From contig LLCB01000264.1 in assembly GCA_001414345.1 (NCBI GenBank), positions 1-64,000 of the forward strand: a stretch of DNA of 64,000 nt, in the 5' to 3' direction. A program made the position numbers and the translations under genes. Below the pieces are notes generated by a model. That model worked only from the letters and a program-made list of their open reading frames with translations, made no database searches and was not told the origin of the DNA. Below, in pieces: positions 1 to 57,949 of this stretch (the stretch's first letter is position 1; each line of letters starts with the position of its first letter). The DNA comes from Hymenoscyphus infarciens (Eukaryota; Ascomycota; Leotiomycetes; Helotiales; Helotiaceae).

Positions 1-328
1 TAGTAGATATATATATCTACTACTAGTAAGAATCTAGTAGATATATATATCTACTAATACTAAAAGTTTAGTAGATATATATATCTACTAATACTAAAAG
101 TTTAGTAGATATATATATCTACTACTACTAAGAATTTAGTAGATATATATATCTACTAATACTAAGAGTTTAGTAGATATATATATCTACTAGTACTAAA
201 AGTTTAGTAGATATATATATCTACTACTAGTAAAAGTTTAGTAGATATATATATCTACTCCTAGTAAAAGTTTAGTAGATATATATATCTACTACTAGTA
301 AAAGTTTAGTAGATATATATATCTACTA
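1..328. repeat. 34-base tandem satellite of a 22-base palindrome
   Basis: Ten copies start at 1, 35, 69, 103, 137, 171, 205, 239, 273 and 307, exactly 34 bases apart. Each copy is a 22-base palindrome whose half-site is TAGTAGATATA, followed by a 12-base spacer that varies slightly (for example ACTAAAAGTT or CTAGTAAAAG cores). Only the copy at 239 has a changed last palindrome base. The array begins at the window edge, so it may extend further left. It ends abruptly at 328 in ordinary-composition sequence. The palindromes could extrude as cruciforms. I know of no named family. Confidence 0.95.
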
Positions 329-29893: not shown

Positions 29894-30863
29894 TCAATCC
29901 ACCCATCGCTGCTGATCTCTATCATAGCCTATGATATCGAGATCAACATTCAAGGTTCGAAGCATCATTGCCATCGTGAACTCCTGTATCAAAATCAGTA
30001 ACCGTAAACTAGTTACCGTATCTGGGAAGGACTTACATCCTCCTCACCCGGCCGCTCCCCTGTATCGCCTACTCCCTTCTCACGTTGTGATTTCTCATTC
30101 TCCGTTTCTATTTCCACATCGTATTGATCATACAGCTCTCTCTTCCTCTTTGCTCTCTCTTTTGATTTTTCGTCATCTTCGTCATCGTCATCGTCGTCAT
30201 CATCGTTGTTATTATTATTCTGATCGGTTTCCCACTGGCCTTGAAATTCCTGCTGTTTTTTCTGCATCGCCTTCCATGCTCTCGGCCCACCCATTCTGCG
30301 GATACAAGGTTAGCATCTGCTAGAAACAAGAGAGGGAGACGCGGGGAAATCAGCAAATACCTATTGACTCTATCCCTCACCCTCCCAAACATCTCCTCGG
30401 CCGCCTCCCTACTCGCCCCTCTCCATTTCTCAATCAAGATCCGTAGTTCCCCATCAACCTCTCCGTCCTTCGTCTCAAGCTCAATCTTTCTCGCCTGCTC
30501 CGCAGTATCCAATTCTTCCTTCAAAGCTCTCAGATCTCTCTCCAAGTCCCTCTGCGTACGAAGTAATGGTGCAATCGCAGGATCAGCATTCAGAACCGCC
30601 GTTGAAACCGGGGACGAGAACTGTTTTTTTCTCGACACGGGACGGGGTGTGCGATTGAGATTCAGAGGTGAATTTGGAAGTTTGGGCGGATTGCTAGAGA
30701 GAATCAGCTTCGCAGATGGCGTGGTATTCTGTACTGGCGTTTTCGTGCCATCTTGAGCTTTCACTGGAGACTTGAAGGGCGTCTTGAAGGGCGAGCGGAA
30801 TGGTTTGCAGAGAGTCTTGGAGGCGTCATCGATGCGTCGACGTTTGGCAGCTGGTGTTGACAT
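29894..30863 (-). CDS. sfr1: Sfr1/Mei5-type recombination factor, 283 residues
   Basis: Partner of Swi5 in the complex that helps Rad51 and Dmc1 filaments in homologous recombination. Three exons: 30361-30863, 30037-30295 and 29894-29983, with GT-AG introns of 65 and 53 bases and matching phases. The N-terminus is basic and Pro/Ser-rich (PAAKRRRIDDASKT and repeated SPFKTPFKSP), typical of the DNA-binding arm of Sfr1. A coiled coil follows (LLRTQRDLERDLRALKEELD), then the family block WRGASREAAEEMF joined by exon 2 to MGGPRAWKAM. An Asn/Asp-rich acidic run interrupts the C-terminal part. Exon 3 supplies the conserved end EFTMAMMLRTLNVDLDIIGY, which supports the splice model strongly. Confidence 0.9.
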
Positions 30864-31353
30864 TTTGGACTCGGTCTTGGACGAGGTGGTTAGTGCTGAG
30901 GTGTCAGTTGGGGAGTAAAGGTTGCGAGCATGCTCTTGAATGATGATAATGTTTTCAACGAGGTTGTAAAGTCCAGGCCAGGCCGGGTTGGCGACAGCGA
31001 CAAAAGGCCAAGACTTGGCGTCCCGAGCCTGAGCCGGAAAGAAGAACTATCCGGCATGCTTTCTTTCAAAATAATTGAATGAAGTCCTAAGCATAAAGGG
31101 AACAAGATTTAATTACTTGGTTACTCTTCTAATAGTCCACCTCGTCTATTCTACTTCGTTCAATTCTACCATCTCACCATCATCGGACCCAGATCTTAAT
31201 TCCTCTTAGCCGGCGTCAGATGAGGAGAAGCAAAATTACGATCCTTCAACACCAGCATCGCACGATTCGCACCGGACCCTCGATCTCAACCCAGAGAACC
31301 ACCTCATATTACAGTCAACTCATGGCTTAGGCCTCGTCGCAATGTTCATCCGC
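30864..31353. other. Promoter region of sfr1 and 3' flank of the phosphatase gene
   Basis: No intact gene. The plus strand at about 31170-31290 carries a short open stretch encoding SDEEKQNYDPSTPASHDS, which could be an exon relic, but nothing around it extends it. Confidence 0.4.
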
Positions 31354-33088
31354 TTAGTTGCCACTTTCAAGGGTTTCCATACCCTCGAATGGGAATGCTG
31401 TTCGAGTGCTGGAATCAGTAGTTGTACCTCCCACTTGGACGCCCGAATCGACAGTCATAGCTCCTACTTGTACACTTGAATCTTTGGTTTTGTGCTTCGG
31501 GGTTTGGGTAGTGAAATGTGCAGTTGTACCTCCCACTTGGACGCCCGAATCGACAGTCATACCTCCTACTTGTACACTTGAATCTTTGGTTGTGTGCTTC
31601 GGGGTTTGGGTAGTGAAATGTGCAGTTGTACCTCCCACTTGGACGCCCGAATCGACAGTCATACCTCCTACTTGTACACTTGAATCTTTGGTTTTGTTCT
31701 TCGGGGTTTGGGTAGTGAAATCGGCAGTTGTAGATCCCACTTGTACACCCGAATCTTTGGTTTCGCTCTTCAGGGTTTGCGTACTGGCATCGATAGTTGG
31801 AGCTTCTGTTTGTACACATGAATATTCAGTTTTCTTCTCCCGGGGGCGCATCCCAGCATTGGCAGTTGTGGCTCCCACTTGTATGCCTGAGTCTGTAGTC
31901 TTAGCTCTCACTTGGGCGCCTGGGTCGCCTTTGATGGCGGTTTCTAAAGCTGCTATTATACTTTTATCGCTGTACCACCCACGTGGTTTAGACAGAGAGG
32001 CTTCAACCGAGGGGATTACCTGGCGGATATTTGCCCAATGTATTATATCATGCTCGGGGTGGAGGCTGAGTCTCTGGGTATATCGTCGATCAACGTAGTC
32101 AAGAAAATCGTCGTCGAAAGCACACCACTTGCGTGTCTTGCTTTCTTTAGTTTCAAATAATGAGTGCGATGTAAACTCGTATGTTCTGTATTGTAAGTTG
32201 TGATAGGTTTCCGTTTCTAGAGTCCACGTCAGTAGTTGAATCCATATGCTATATCTAACTTTCATGGAACGACTTACCCTTTCCAGTGACGTGCTTATGA
32301 ATTTCGTCCATGAAGCTCCCATGTGTGACCACCGCAATCTCGATATCCCTTCCGTTGCTTTCCCTGCTGCCGTATCGTTCCCGAGAGTTTGGATAGAATG
32401 GGAGTCGTTTCAACGATGGATTGCACCTCTTTTCGGTTTCCTGGCGACCTAAATCCCACAAGTTGAAGACTACCTCGCGCGCTTTTCTGGCTTTTTCTGC
32501 TGAGCCGCGTTTTGTGATCTTCTCCCAACCTCTCTCAAGGGCACTCAAGTCTATGTCTCTTCCGTTGATGAACGATTCAAGGTCTAAAGTGGAACTTCCA
32601 TGGCTAGAATTCGAGGTACCCAAAGACCGAAGTGAAGGCCAGACTACAAGTCTCAACCCTTCAGTTTGTAGAGGATGGAACGCTAGATGGGCTTGATCTC
32701 AGGATATCCAGGTCAGTCTCCTTCTTAGAAAGATTCAAGATTTGCCAGACAGGTAAAGAGTCACTCGTTACTCCTGAAAGACCAGAATAGGAAAAATTCC
32801 CTGAGAAGTTGGACTCACCAGTTTGCAGAGCTCTCTTCATTGGCGAAACGATAACATGTGTAATTCTCTGCATCGGCTCAAAATTCTCTCTAAAGTGGTC
32901 GGCTTGGCAGATACCTAACTGGTTCAGTACTGGATCGACTAGGTGGCCTTTATTCTTTTGGTTTTCGCACTTGCATACGTCAGTAAAATTCCTCCAGGGA
33001 AACTCTATGAAAGACCTACTTCTGCATGCCTAATAAAATGTACTATGACGCGAGGTCTTTCTGTGTCTGGTGGACAGCTATCCACCAT
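31354..33088 (-). CDS. Histidine phosphatase (phosphoglycerate-mutase-like) with a repeat tail, 498 residues
   Basis: Four exons: 33020-33088, 32819-32969, 32278-32691 and 31354-32216. Introns are 50, 127 and 61 bases, GT-AG, with consistent phases. The catalytic domain has the expected landmarks: VHFIRHAE (Arg20-His21), HVIVSPMKRALQT (Arg69) and IAVVTHGSF (His197). The N-terminus up to residue 300 resembles fungal PGM-like phosphatases of unknown substrate. From about residue 310 the protein changes to a tail with a QV/QT site every 11-12 residues (DSGIQVGA, DASTQTLK, DFTTQTPK, DSSVQVGG), including three near-identical 34-residue repeats. The tail sites look like binding motifs for the dynein light chain LC8. 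Exon 1 and its start rest on ATG plus the RHA motif. An alternative is a pure PGM-like protein whose tail serves another role. Confidence 0.88.
31421..31726 (-). repeat. Three 102-base coding repeats in the phosphatase tail
   Basis: Near-identical units start at 31421, 31523 and 31625 on the plus strand (GTTGTACCTCCCACTTGGAC). The period is 102 bases, or 34 codons, so the frame is kept. More diverged units continue to about 31910. The high identity suggests recent unequal exchange, so copy number may vary between strains. Confidence 0.93.
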
Positions 33089-34912
33089 TCCACAAACATG
33101 CGATCGATATGGCGATTCCCTTCTCTTTCTCTTCAGATAATTGATCTCTGGGGCCATGGCGCCGGGCTCGGGTGCTTGCGAAATCTCGAATTAACACTTT
33201 TCTTCTTGTGAGAGTCCTCGGACTGTGTTTGCAATTGACGTTCAGCGATTTGAGATCGAACTTTCTGGGTGTGCTCTTTGGTTTGTGAGTGCTGTATTTA
33301 AAGGCGAGTCCGTTCTTCTTATGCGTGGATGCCTAGCTCCCCAACGGGCTGTTCCTAGACTCTTGTTTATGATGGTCGTTTATGGCGCGCGTTTGCTTTG
33401 TGTCACGTAGAAGTGGACCCTCGCTACCTCTCAGGGGTGCTTCGCACCTGTATGAGAGACTCAGCTCCCCCGGATTCAAGATCTTTGAAGTGTTTCCACC
33501 TGCTACGATACATGCGACATCGAAAGAAGTCGCGTGCTGCGCGCAACTGAAAAAAGCTCTCCATGTTTAAACCGTGGTGTTGTCTTGGGGTTTACCCAGC
33601 TGCAGCCTGCCGCCCAAACAAAATTCACCTCGAGATCATGCACGATCATCGGAGTAGTCTGCCACCTACTAAAGACAACTTAAGAAATCAGATAATGTCA
33701 TTTATCGAGATACAACGCTATCATCGCGATATTACCGGTGGCATATCAGGGGGGTCTACGATATTATCGTGTCATATTAAGTGATCCAATCGATACCGGA
33801 TTTCTAAGGATAACCAATAATGTATTAATTATCGACGGAAAATAGTTAATCTAGAGGAGAACAGTTCTTCTAGCTTCTAGCTAAGAGCTAATAGAATACT
33901 TAGTTTTCTAAAAATAAAGATAACGCTATATATTTTAATAGTAAATTATAATTAGTTATAACTCTAAGAAACCACTTGTCTTGTTATAAATCCTTTATAC
34001 TAATTTAAGATTTATATAATAACTTTTTAATATTAATAAAGTAGAGTTCCAAAACGAAATTATAAGTTATATAATCTCTATTTAGTACTATAAGGCACTA
34101 GCACCAAAGCCGGATATTTATTATATTACATAACAATTTATAATATTTATTATATAATATATCGCGATAATCAAATACAATATCATATCGCCGCCTAAGT
34201 CTACTCATTGAGAATTTAGTTCTTTTCTCTAGAAATTTGAAAATTACCATAAGTTTCCTCTATTTACACTGATTAATCTAAAAGTTACTTGTTTTTGTTT
34301 TAATCAAATAAAGTATACTTACTGTCGCCTGTATTATCGACTAGGAGCCCTACTTATATCGTCTCAACAAAATTAATTATAAAACTACCGGCCGGAAACA
34401 CTTAATTTTTATATGCAATTGAAACCCTACTGCCTAGAGCTCTTGGGAACAGAGGCGAGTAAGCAAGAGTCTTAAAACTCAAAAACTTGTTCCTAATTAT
34501 CAATTTGGCACTACTTTGATTCATTATCTTCTCTCCATTCACTTATGAAGCCTCAAGCAATCTATACTCCGCAGTCCCACTAGTTCCCCACGCAACCCCG
34601 CACCCCGTTGCAACATGCGTAGTGAATAACCCTTAAGGTCTTGCAACTTCAAAGTCTCGACATGCTAATTTCCGGTTAAATCGAATTCAACATTCACCAA
34701 ATTCAATATAGGGAGAAAGGGAGAGGAAAGTAGTTGACAGTGATTCTTCATTTCAAGGCTCTTCCTAGCCGCTATTCTGGGCTTCCTAGCCACATATGAT
34801 GCCAGAATGTTACAATTATTACGTCCATCCTGACGCCCCATTATCCACCCAGCCCCTTAAATTCCACCCGGATGATGGTACCGCTACCCAGCGTCATAAA
34901 TAAATTCGTACA
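33089..34912. other. Intergenic region with an AT-rich RIP-like patch
   Basis: Positions 33089-33780 have normal composition and only short, featureless ORFs. Positions about 33790-34240 are AT-rich and stop-filled. They include GATATTATCG and ATATCGCGATAATC tracts near both edges, perhaps a decayed inverted-repeat element. The rest is the 3' flank of the permease gene. Confidence 0.45.
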
Positions 34913-55182: not shown

Positions 55183-57949
55183 ATGGCAGGATTAGGACAG
55201 GACATGGAGGGTGCTGGTGAACCTCCATTTGAACCTCCTCCCCGACCGGCGTCAACTTCGATCTTGCCAGATGGGCGTGAGCTGGTTGTTCATCCAAGAC
55301 CTACCAAGCGCAGATCCAAACCAGAGTCTCTCACCAAGGTTGCTACCATCAACAGTGCAAGAGACCGGTTGAGCCAACGTCGTGGCGCCGACAACTTGCG
55401 CGAACTTTACGAGTCCCCACCACGACTTCTACGCAGAGAGGATGCTACTGTTGGCCAACCAGCTGTAGATTATAGAGAGCGGGTATGTATCTCACCTTTC
55501 CTTTCCTTCTTACAATTGCTGACACTTTGAAGGCCATGTCTGTTTATGCTCAGTTTCCTGCTGCCAATGGTGAGGGCGACGAGTCTTTGATCAGCTCTAT
55601 TTGCAACTTCTTCCCTGTAAGCTTCACCTTTGCTCACAAACACACCAAAGTGGTACTGACGCGTCACAGGCCGCTCCAACTGGTGTTCCTTCTTCAACGG
55701 GATCTTCTGTCGCGTCTTCCTCGTCTTCCTCGTCCTCTTCAAGCAACAACGACTTGGTTAAACGTTCTTCTGCGGTGAGTCAGGATAGTTATGCAGCTTA
55801 TGCCTATCGCATTCTCACTCGCAGTTTAGAGGCTTGTTCAATGCATTGTTTTTGTTTTTCTTTACAAGCCAAAGCTGACTTGGACCTAGCTGCTCAACAA
55901 GGATCTTCCACCTGAGCCATTTCTTCAAGACCAAATCCCGTTCAAGGACTTGCTCCCCAAGCCACCCAAACACTCGGCCAAATCCTCGCTTGAGACCTCG
56001 ACCACTGACGGCGCACTCTCGTTCGTGGCCGCATACGACGGAGCTTTCGACACACCCCCATCTCCCACAGGACAATTGGCAGATAGCAACATCGCATCAA
56101 CCGCCTCAACCATTGGATTGACTGGCACTCAACTCAGTCCGATTTCAGACCACACCGAGCCCTCGACCGCGCGAGGTTCGCCTGCAAATTTCGAGGTCCC
56201 AAACCAACGTCGTCGTCGTATTGGAGCTACAATTGGTGGCAGTCCACGCAGTCGTCGCACTCTTCGCACCATAGGAAGCGTCATTGGTGGTCGCCCTTCT
56301 CAATACTACTTGACACCTCAACCACCTCGTCGGCATATCGCGCACGAGATGCGTCCACCGCTAGGTATGTATCTCTTCATTCAAATATTCAAAGGACCAT
56401 ACTGACCTATTACTAGTCAATGAGATGTACCGCCAGGCGGTCACATCTCAACCTGAGATGATCGATGGCGCCACCGACACATCTCCAATCTTGCCAACCG
56501 CCGTGAGACGTTTCACGAAGTATCAATGCGGCGCGACCTACCGGGAGGCTTCCGACGCTCACGAAGTCATCATGGGTTACCCACGGGGTGGGGCCCCACC
56601 GGATGAGATGAGGTTAGTGATTATCTCTGAATCCTCAAAGTCATTATCAATCTAACAATCTTCACAGCAATGGAGTCCAATCTTCACTTGGAAGTAAGAC
56701 TATCAAGAAGGGAAGCGCCCGGGTTCGTGAACTCTAGACTCCTCAACTTCAGATATGGCATACTGACCAGATCCAGGGTTCCGCGTACAACAAGAGTGCT
56801 TCCAACGTCGCTGCCAATACTCCTCGATCCTCGCCACTTGAAGCTGGTTCTGTTCTTGACCGCCTAACCCGACCAACCGCTACGAGTGCCCGTCGCGAGA
56901 TCATTGGCAAGGACCGCCGTCGCCAATCCGGCACCTTTCCAGTTGTCGAGAAGACCCCACCTGCTGCTCAACCAAAGAAGGCCGTCAATGTCCCAAAGGT
57001 CAACCCGGTCAAGAAGGCTAGCAAGGGTTTCAAGACAAAGCTGTCATCTTTGATGGCTGGTCGTGGCAAGAGTGCTGGTCGAGTTCCAGTCGTCGCAGCC
57101 AAATATACCGCATCTGATGCAATCGAGGAAGGCGAGGAGGACAATCGACTTTCGCGCAATATGGCAACCTACCGTGGCTCTGGCATGGATCGACGAACTT
57201 CCCAATTGCCACGTCCATATGCCACCACTCCCGACCTGACCGAGCACGCTGCCGCTGCCGAAGACGAAGATGTTTTCTCACCACGTCCATCGACCTCTCA
57301 CGATCAAGTACGATCTGATGAGCGTTACCCATCCCTTCAACCTCGCGCACCCTCTTCGGAGCACACTCTTCGAGTGGATGCTCACGCTTCTCGTGCTGAG
57401 CTTGGCGAGGCTTTCCGCGCTCGGAACGCCGGTCTCATGGATGGTCAAGGTCGCTTCTATAATCATTCCAATGCTTCCGCCGGTCCTTCTTCCGCTGCCA
57501 ACGGTGGTCAAGGTCGCTTCTACAATCACTCCAATGCTTCCGCCGGTCCTTCTTCCGCTGCCAACGGTCCTGTCGCCTTCACTTCCGCTGCTGCTGTCGC
57601 AGGTCCTTCTTCAGTTCCCACACCACCAGCCACCCAGGGAGGAGGTCCCGTAATCGCCAACGATGTCTATGGAAATGTGGTCGACGAGATGCTTCGGGCA
57701 GCCGAGCGATCCTTGCGTAGCTTGATTCAAACAGCCGGTACTATTCAAGACGAAGCCATGAAGGATGAATTGATTGACATCATCGAGGCCTTGGGTCACT
57801 CTATTGCGCACACCAGAACCGTCCGTATTGAGATTATGCGTCAGACCGAGGTGCAAATCCGCTTGTCTTCTAGACTTCAGCTCTTTGCAGCACAGGCCGT
57901 GGCCCAAGTTCAACTTGCACAGGCTGCCCCGGCATCTCGATCTGGATGA
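55183..57949 (+). CDS. Unrecognised conserved-looking protein, about 795 residues, seven exons
   Basis: Exons: 55183-55482, 55533-55616, 55670-55774, 55890-56364, 56417-56612, 56668-56722 and 56777-57949. Introns are 50, 53, 115, 52, 55 and 54 bases with matching phases. The sixth intron has an unusual GTTCGT donor, so that join is less sure. The protein is mostly low-complexity: Pro-rich start, Ser run in exon 3, Arg-rich NQRRRRIGATIGG and a basic stretch KKASKGFKTKL. Residues near the C-terminus form a probable helical domain (VVDEMLRAAERSLRSLIQ then EIMRQTEVQIRLSSRLQLF). A 63-base unit is duplicated at 57443-57568 (GQGRFYNHSNASAGPSS). I know no family for it. It looks intracellular. Confidence 0.75.

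Follow-up and report, generated by a model that had tools for sequence, protein, structure and literature searches.

A predicted LC8 docking ladder on the tail of a histidine-phosphatase-superfamily protein

The dynein light chain LC8 is known to assemble on partners that carry several of its docking motifs. In yeast Nup159, five LC8 (Dyn2) dimers stack into a stiff rod that is visible by negative-stain EM (PMC12017986). Human ASCIZ/ATMIN has 11 verified and 16 predicted LC8 sites, joined by linkers of 1 to at least 30 residues that lead to heterogeneous complexes (PMC10046861). In Drosophila ASCIZ, site QT2 begins at residue 274 and site QT3 at residue 285, an 11-residue step that leaves a 3-residue linker (PMC5963919). 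This pair, in which QT3 is a TMT site, forms stable, cooperative 2:4 LC8 complexes, off-register forms appear at high LC8, and LC8 dimers may make contact sideways; a uniform-binding zone includes linkers of 6 and 9 residues (PMC10046861). The single motif is eight residues long (PMC10046861) and has been published as [D/S]-4 K-3 X-2 [T/V/I]-1 Q0 [T/V]+1 [D/E]+2 (PMC3078936), the LC8 site of nNOS being KDTGIQVDRD (PMC13114162). In the nNOS complex, Asp at -4 hydrogen-bonds Thr67 of LC8, and phage display selected against Asp at this position (PMC3078936). Pro is favoured at +2, and small residues at -3 and hydrophobic residues at +2 and at -4 are disfavoured (PMC6607443). Further literature on which this analysis draws is found in PMC5746249, PMC12057147, PMC3995210 and PMC11750543.

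In the window, which is the whole 64-kb stretch of DNA that was analysed (C184:1-64000), splicing and translation gave a four-exon minus-strand gene (33157-31354) encoding a histidine-phosphatase-superfamily protein of 521 residues, whose tail carries 14 predicted LC8 sites in tandem. Nup159 has LC8 sites in tandem as well, on a disordered stretch of a nucleoporin; there, FG repeats and a coiled coil flank the five sites, whereas here the 14 predicted sites are attached to a phosphatase-superfamily domain. The host homologue of Nup159 (L039, C239:33500-40500) has FG repeats yet, unlike the five-site yeast protein, no LC8-type ladder, with only 2 isolated [TVIAS]Q[TV] matches in its frame of 1311 residues. 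ASCIZ gathers many LC8 sites in a single tail, as is predicted for the phosphatase-like protein, and differs from it in its linkers, every one of which is 3 or 4 residues here because motifs of eight residues recur at steps of 11 or 12. The step of 11 is common to the QT2-QT3 pair and to the ladder. Since the uniform-binding zone lies at linkers of 6 and 9, a ladder with linkers of 3-4 residues may be tight.

The gene is apparently of fungal type, with introns of 50, 127 and 61 nt, all GT..AG, whose boundaries were picked by eye. Exon 1 (33020..33157, minus strand, as are all features of this gene) encodes a basic KRKRR stretch at residues 9-13 and closes on the RHAE catalytic motif. Exon 2 (32819..32969) holds the part of the phosphatase domain with SPMKRALQT, and exon 3 (32278..32691) the part with VVTHGSF, which contains the second His, and with LRS instead of LRE at the presumed catalytic-acid position. 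Exon 4 (31354..32216) encodes the end of the phosphatase domain, a linker of about 80 residues, the ladder tail and the stop. It opens with YHNLQYRTYEF, and the counterparts past the second His are YANADFRIFDL and YYNADYRAFEF in two further histidine-phosphatase loci (L017 and L018); the predicted join of exons 3 and 4 is thus supported by the reading frame and by a domain motif matching both loci. An earlier, sequence-only reading of this DNA had placed exon 4 at the same coordinates on the same strand. The antisense open frame 31358-32098 was set aside, since the spliced minus-strand gene accounts for this stretch. Elsewhere in the window, an adjoining open frame (30108-31046, minus strand) gave a weak Pfam match to the recombination-repair protein Mei5 (E 0.0021, below cut-off). 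The contig start (window 1-328) is an AT-rich 34-bp tandem repeat of 9.6 copies with 94% matches, past which blocks of about 20-30% G+C lie between 5 and 23 kb. A 63-bp unit is duplicated in frame (GQGRFYNHSNASAGPSSAANG x2) at 57442-57568 (plus strand), within an open frame of 403 residues (56738-57949).

The domain matches PF00300 (His_Phos_1; best stretch residues 40-118, E 3.6e-14), and the catalytic landmarks RHAE, SPMKRALQT and VVTHGSF are all present, so that both profile and motifs are those of a branch 1 histidine phosphatase. When the full protein was searched against the PDB, four weak matches were returned, one to a tail fibre and three to phosphatase-like chains, of which the best had E 1.1. 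The Glu that follows LR is the general acid in the histidine phosphatase superfamily. In the window protein this position is Ser; among the aligned genomic loci it is Glu in 11 of 12 and Gln in the remaining one (L016), the alignment holding 12 loci, some as partial exons; matches lay on 15 contigs in all, and the loci on C731, C115 and C503 were left out. Since Ser replaces the presumed catalytic-acid Glu, the window protein may be a weak enzyme or a pseudo-enzyme. The proposal of the sequence-only reading that the tail would cluster the enzyme is weakened by this loss.

We then examined the sites of the tail. Gln occurs at residues 336, 347, 370, 381, 393, 404, 416, 427, 438, 450, 461, 472, 484 and 495, and two further in-register positions, residues 358 and 506, are Arg. 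All 15 steps between these 16 sites are of 11 or 12 residues, and no Gln lies off the ladder from residue 320 onward, all 14 Gln of the last 196 residues being on it. These are the sites listed earlier, where the numbers are 23 lower throughout, as if the count had begun at Met24; the regular step and the two in-register Arg sites, both noted at that time, are borne out by our site table. According to the exon map, the 16 in-register sites cover 31396..31926. The Gln codons, from the first site to the last, are at 31912-31914, 31879-31881, 31810-31812, 31777-31779, 31741-31743, 31708-31710, 31672-31674, 31639-31641, 31606-31608, 31570-31572, 31537-31539, 31504-31506, 31468-31470 and 31435-31437, and the Arg codons are at 31846-31848 and 31402-31404.

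The anchor [TVI]Q[TV] is found in 13 of the 14 Gln sites (TQT in four, VQT in one, IQV or VQV in eight, with AQV in the last), and Asp stands at -4 in 12 of the 16 ladder sites. The sites do not belong to the classical classes to which they had been assigned. No Gln site is of the [K/R]xTQT class, since -3 is occupied by Ala or Phe in all four TQT sites. At +2, three of these four have Pro and site 381 has Leu. The remaining sites had been likened to the GIQV form of nNOS, but the class sequence GIQVD occurs exactly in 0 of 14; they are GIQVG (one), GVQVG (four), SVQVG, CVQTE and GAQVR. nNOS has a single LC8 site, with Asp at +2, and no ladder site has Asp there. The site at residue 393, KDSGVQVG, differs from the nNOS octamer by Ser for Thr at -3, Val for Ile at -1 and Gly for Asp at +2. 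A beta-TrCP degron has the form DSGxxS; this candidate was rejected for the DSGVQVG sites, in which the final Ser is missing.

Repetition in the tail has two layers, a recent 102-bp tandem repeat whose unit holds three sites (31420..31755; 3.3 copies, 95% matches) and an older 69-bp repeat encoding 23 residues with two sites (31650..31799; 2.2 copies, 79% matches). Two site forms had been said to alternate; the alternation is not strict, as the recent repeat has two VQV sites for each TQT site. Controls for chance were run at two levels. When the residues of the 196-residue tail were shuffled, [TVI]Q[TV] motifs numbered 1.31 on average, against 13 observed, and none of 20,000 shuffles reached 13. 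When a single 34-residue unit was permuted, which allows for the repeat, flanks and spacing arose together in 6 of 400,000 cases. Moreover, in 267,644 bases (overlaps included) comprising the 64-kb window and the fetched genomic loci, scanned in six frames for steps of 10-15, no ladder of at least three sites was found besides those of the phosphatase-like gene and of a gene on contig C279. These results indicate that the ladder is real and non-random.

We looked for the same arrangement across the assembly (65.6 Mb, 742 contigs). Searched with the window protein, it contained a second ladder on C279 (E 1.8e-7, 41% identity), and two protein searches with the ladder only found the phosphatase-like gene and the C279 gene and no other. 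A short motif pattern gave 41 matches in the genome (5 for the reversed control), of which 8 are in the tail and 3 in C279; the remaining 30 are without ladder spacing, and the surroundings of 20 of these 30, which were inspected, show no ladder. Additional ladders whose codons have diverged may have escaped these searches. As a separate observation, a near-identical coding word for DSGIQA/V/T (GACTCGGGCATTCAGGC and close variants) is present on ten contigs, C9, C96, C259, C307, C389, C437, C495, C539, C703 and C741; this recurrence suggests a dispersed repeat and not ladders, the surrounding sequence having been inspected for the C9 copy.

The C279 protein has 630 residues in a single frame. 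By our reading its N-terminus is coiled-coil-like, and its Pfam matches are sub-threshold, several of them to coiled-coil families; a hydrophobic stretch lies near residues 544-562 (mean hydropathy 1.41). A first block of eight sites at 264-344 follows steps of 11, 12, 11, 12, 11, 12 and 11, and a second block of four sites at 393-426 follows steps of 11. The unit-permutation control was weaker for this ladder (101 of 400,000). Apart from the ladder, the C279 protein is unrelated to the phosphatase-like protein. In direct comparison, the two tails are 38% identical in protein, and DNA hits of E 1e-4 or better show 71-89% identity in short stretches of 26-98 bp; from this similarity a partly common ancestry of the two ladders is probable. 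Shared DNA becomes less certain in view of a search of the whole genome with 513 bases from the phosphatase tail, which returned the tail itself only and missed C279. Because of the DNA similarity, the C279 ladder is not fully independent evidence.

To compare residue positions, 22 distinct units were pooled, 11 of the 16 of the phosphatase tail and 11 of the 12 of C279; units 450, 461, 472, 484 and 495 and the C279 unit 310 were left out as repeat copies. Information was highest at Q0 (3.26 bits), followed by D-4 (2.49), V/T at +1 (2.15) and V/T/I at -1 (1.68), and -5, -3 and +2 to +4 varied more than Q0 and D-4. The conserved positions thus agree with the published LC8 motif, except at -3 and +2. 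For pN/pS, from which the Arg sites 358 and 506 were also left out and which carries no significance test, the core (-4 to +1) compared with the outside positions (-5, +3 to +5) gave 0.54 vs 1.26 in the phosphatase tail and 0.68 vs 0.97 in C279. By unit class, the four IQVG/VQVG-type units (347, 393, 416 and 427) gave 0.11 in the core and 1.26 outside, and the core values were 1.14 in three TQT-type units and 0.83 and 1.39 in two C279 classes. The strong selection signal therefore comes from one unit class, the other three giving no purifying signal.

These values bear on the possibility of a neutral minisatellite, in which a disordered Ser/Thr-rich tail changes its length by slippage and the likeness to LC8 sites is an accident of Gln, Val and Thr in the founding unit. 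The recent 102-bp repeat with its 95% matches fits this possibility, and so do three of the four unit classes, with core pN/pS from 0.83 to 1.39. So does the phosphatase-like gene on C113 (28% identity over part of the protein), which, as spliced by hand, has no tail. However, the step of 11 or 12 is held across diverged units, Q0 and D-4 stay where -5, -3 and +2 to +4 vary more, and core pN/pS falls to 0.11 in the IQVG/VQVG-type units and is lower than outside in the pooled Gln units too; a ladder of the same type also sits on the unrelated C279 gene. A minisatellite explains the young 102-bp copies but neither the register in diverged units nor the C279 ladder, and as an account of the whole tail we consider it unlikely.

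The tail could also be an amyloid or beta-solenoid that self-polymerises without LC8, either through cores like those of RHIM and PP motifs or as a Gln-ladder solenoid built of the 23-residue unit with its two Gln. A curli-like solenoid, with what we take to be its Gln spacing, is retained solely within this explanation. RHIM and the PP motif of fungi have in common the core G-(I,V)-Q-(I,V)-G, beside which Asn and Gly are conserved too in PP motifs (PMC7885112). The exact core is present in 5 of the 14 Gln sites of the phosphatase tail and in 3 of 12 in C279, and short strands appear in the tail when exon 4 is modelled by AlphaFold2 from its single sequence. Nevertheless, the mean pLDDT of this model is 41 (tail 27-59, recent repeat 46-59), which is too low to trust the strands; the tail, which is 20% Thr, is without a confident fold. 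Asn is absent within five residues of each of the five cores. The other nine sites, including all those with TQT or VQT, which are intermixed with the rest, do not fit the core, and Pro at +2 and Asp at -4 are left unexplained. No Pfam family passed the cut-off in the tail (best E 2.1). An NLR-type domain was absent at E 0.01 from eight other frames of the window (ten open frames of at least 200 residues, minus exon 4 and its antisense frame), a check in which spliced genes could be missed. We therefore judge an amyloid tail to be quite unlikely.

Two further explanations concern what would read the sites. One is that Mec1/Tel1-type kinases phosphorylate the TQ sites, as in an SQ/TQ cluster, and that these are not LC8 sites. 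By the customary definition and count of such clusters, four TQ in 92 residues (381, 404, 438 and 472) are sufficient, and the neighbouring gene has the sub-threshold match to Mei5 mentioned above. Yet the residue before Gln is Val, Ile or Ala in 10 of the 14 sites and cannot be phosphorylated, and to our knowledge kinases of this type would demand neither Asp at -4 nor a register of 11 or 12; this explanation seems very unlikely. The other is that a hub different from LC8 reads strands of the form D-x-x-[V/T]-Q-[V/T]. The departure of -3 and +2 from LC8 preference speaks for it, as do the low matrix scores of the VQV sites described below; against it, we know of no other hub with an anchor of this type, and LC8 is present and conserved in the genome. 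This, too, seems to us very unlikely.

We looked for LC8 itself in the assembly. A profile search gave one match, at C60:4114-4326 on the minus strand (PF01221, E 7.2e-21), whose exons join to a protein of 95 residues, or 98 with another acceptor. The 98-residue form matches PDB dynein light chain 2 chains (E 2.5e-40) and keeps the groove strand NFGSFVTHETKHF. For the dynein intermediate chain, the genome gave one weak match (E 0.61) in unconvincing reading frames. In a large protein set, neither the full protein nor residues 1-330 alone nor exon 4 alone had a homologue at threshold; this null says little on conservation, since the set is perhaps poor in fungi, which is a guess.

The ladder sites were scored with a matrix built from 26 LC8-binding sequences, taken from published tables and abstracts, against 25 anchor-holding non-binders of 43 tabulated. 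It omits the second MUC4 row, four rows marked 'weak', ASCIZ QT3 and the other 18 non-binder rows, the majority of which, though not every one, lack a usable anchor. Its leave-one-out AUC is 0.82, with a median of 14.1 for binders and 9.2 for non-binders. The four TQT sites scored 10.7-14.6, above the non-binder median. The eight IQV/VQV sites scored 5.7-7.4, below it, on a matrix that judges the VQV class poorly because nNOS is its sole member of this class. Site 370 (VQT) scored 7.0 and site 336 -0.4, both also below the non-binder median, and 3 of the 12 C279 sites scored above 9.2. The low scores count against strong binding of the IQV/VQV sites taken singly. Likewise, the published rules go against the small residues at -3 of the ladder and against Leu at +2 of site 381.

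Altogether, the best-supported reading is that the 14-motif tail is a predicted multivalent LC8 docking strip, and we hold this to be somewhat more probable than its opposite. The LC8 ladder proposed from the sequence-only reading is supported in part, by the residues at the preferred positions, the LC8 gene, the 11-residue step and the second ladder; it is weakened by the lack of any site with the full consensus, by the low scores of the IQV/VQV sites, by the small residues at -3 and by the five sites that suit the RHIM/PP core equally. On this docking-strip reading, two chains would each contribute one site to an LC8 dimer, bound as a beta-strand, so that two tails would be held side by side and the phosphatase-like proteins zipped into parallel pairs. 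With linkers of only 3-4 residues, neighbouring LC8 dimers would touch. First and last Gln sites are 159 residues apart; counting about 0.34 nm per residue, a stiff LC8 stack of up to about 54 nm could result; alternatively, the stack might be filled at every second site, 22-24 residues apart. The predicted effect is that the phosphatase-like domains would be paired or clustered, tuned by the amount of free LC8. Because most relatives carry the presumed catalytic-acid Glu at a position that is Ser here, the paired unit may be a binding or regulatory scaffold more than an enzyme.

The occurrence of the ladder on two unrelated genes invites a wider proposal, which we put forward tentatively as a whole and regard as possible but doubtful. 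One repeat would have passed between genes at the DNA level as a transferable LC8-ladder module; it would make both the phosphatase-like protein and the C279 protein, with its coiled-coil-like part and hydrophobic segment, into LC8-zipped parallel rods; and these rods would be denser and more regular than in the clients compared here, with free LC8 setting the degree of polymerisation of the phosphatase-derived domain, whose catalysis is perhaps silenced.

We know of no earlier LC8 ladder on a phosphatase domain. In the literature searched, which covered few subscription journals, no LC8 ladder on a histidine phosphatase or phosphoglycerate mutase was found, the papers that name phosphoglycerate mutase together with LC8 being off topic by title and opening of the abstract, and no tandem-repeat LC8-binding ladder was found for fungi in this same, mostly subscription-free literature. 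Judged by title, multivalent LC8 in the filamentous-fungus literature concerned only the dynein intermediate chain and a Drosophila bristle protein. Should LC8 bind, the regularity of the ladder would exceed that of the multivalent clients compared here (Nup159 and ASCIZ). The number of its sites would be greater than in Nup159 (5) and similar to human ASCIZ (11 verified, 16 predicted), with uniform linkers of 3-4 residues between them. It would then be a natural test of tight regular spacing, a point left open by the work on ASCIZ linker length. LC8 ladders would extend to a phosphatase-superfamily protein, and the C279 gene would suggest that such a ladder can be shared between unrelated genes.
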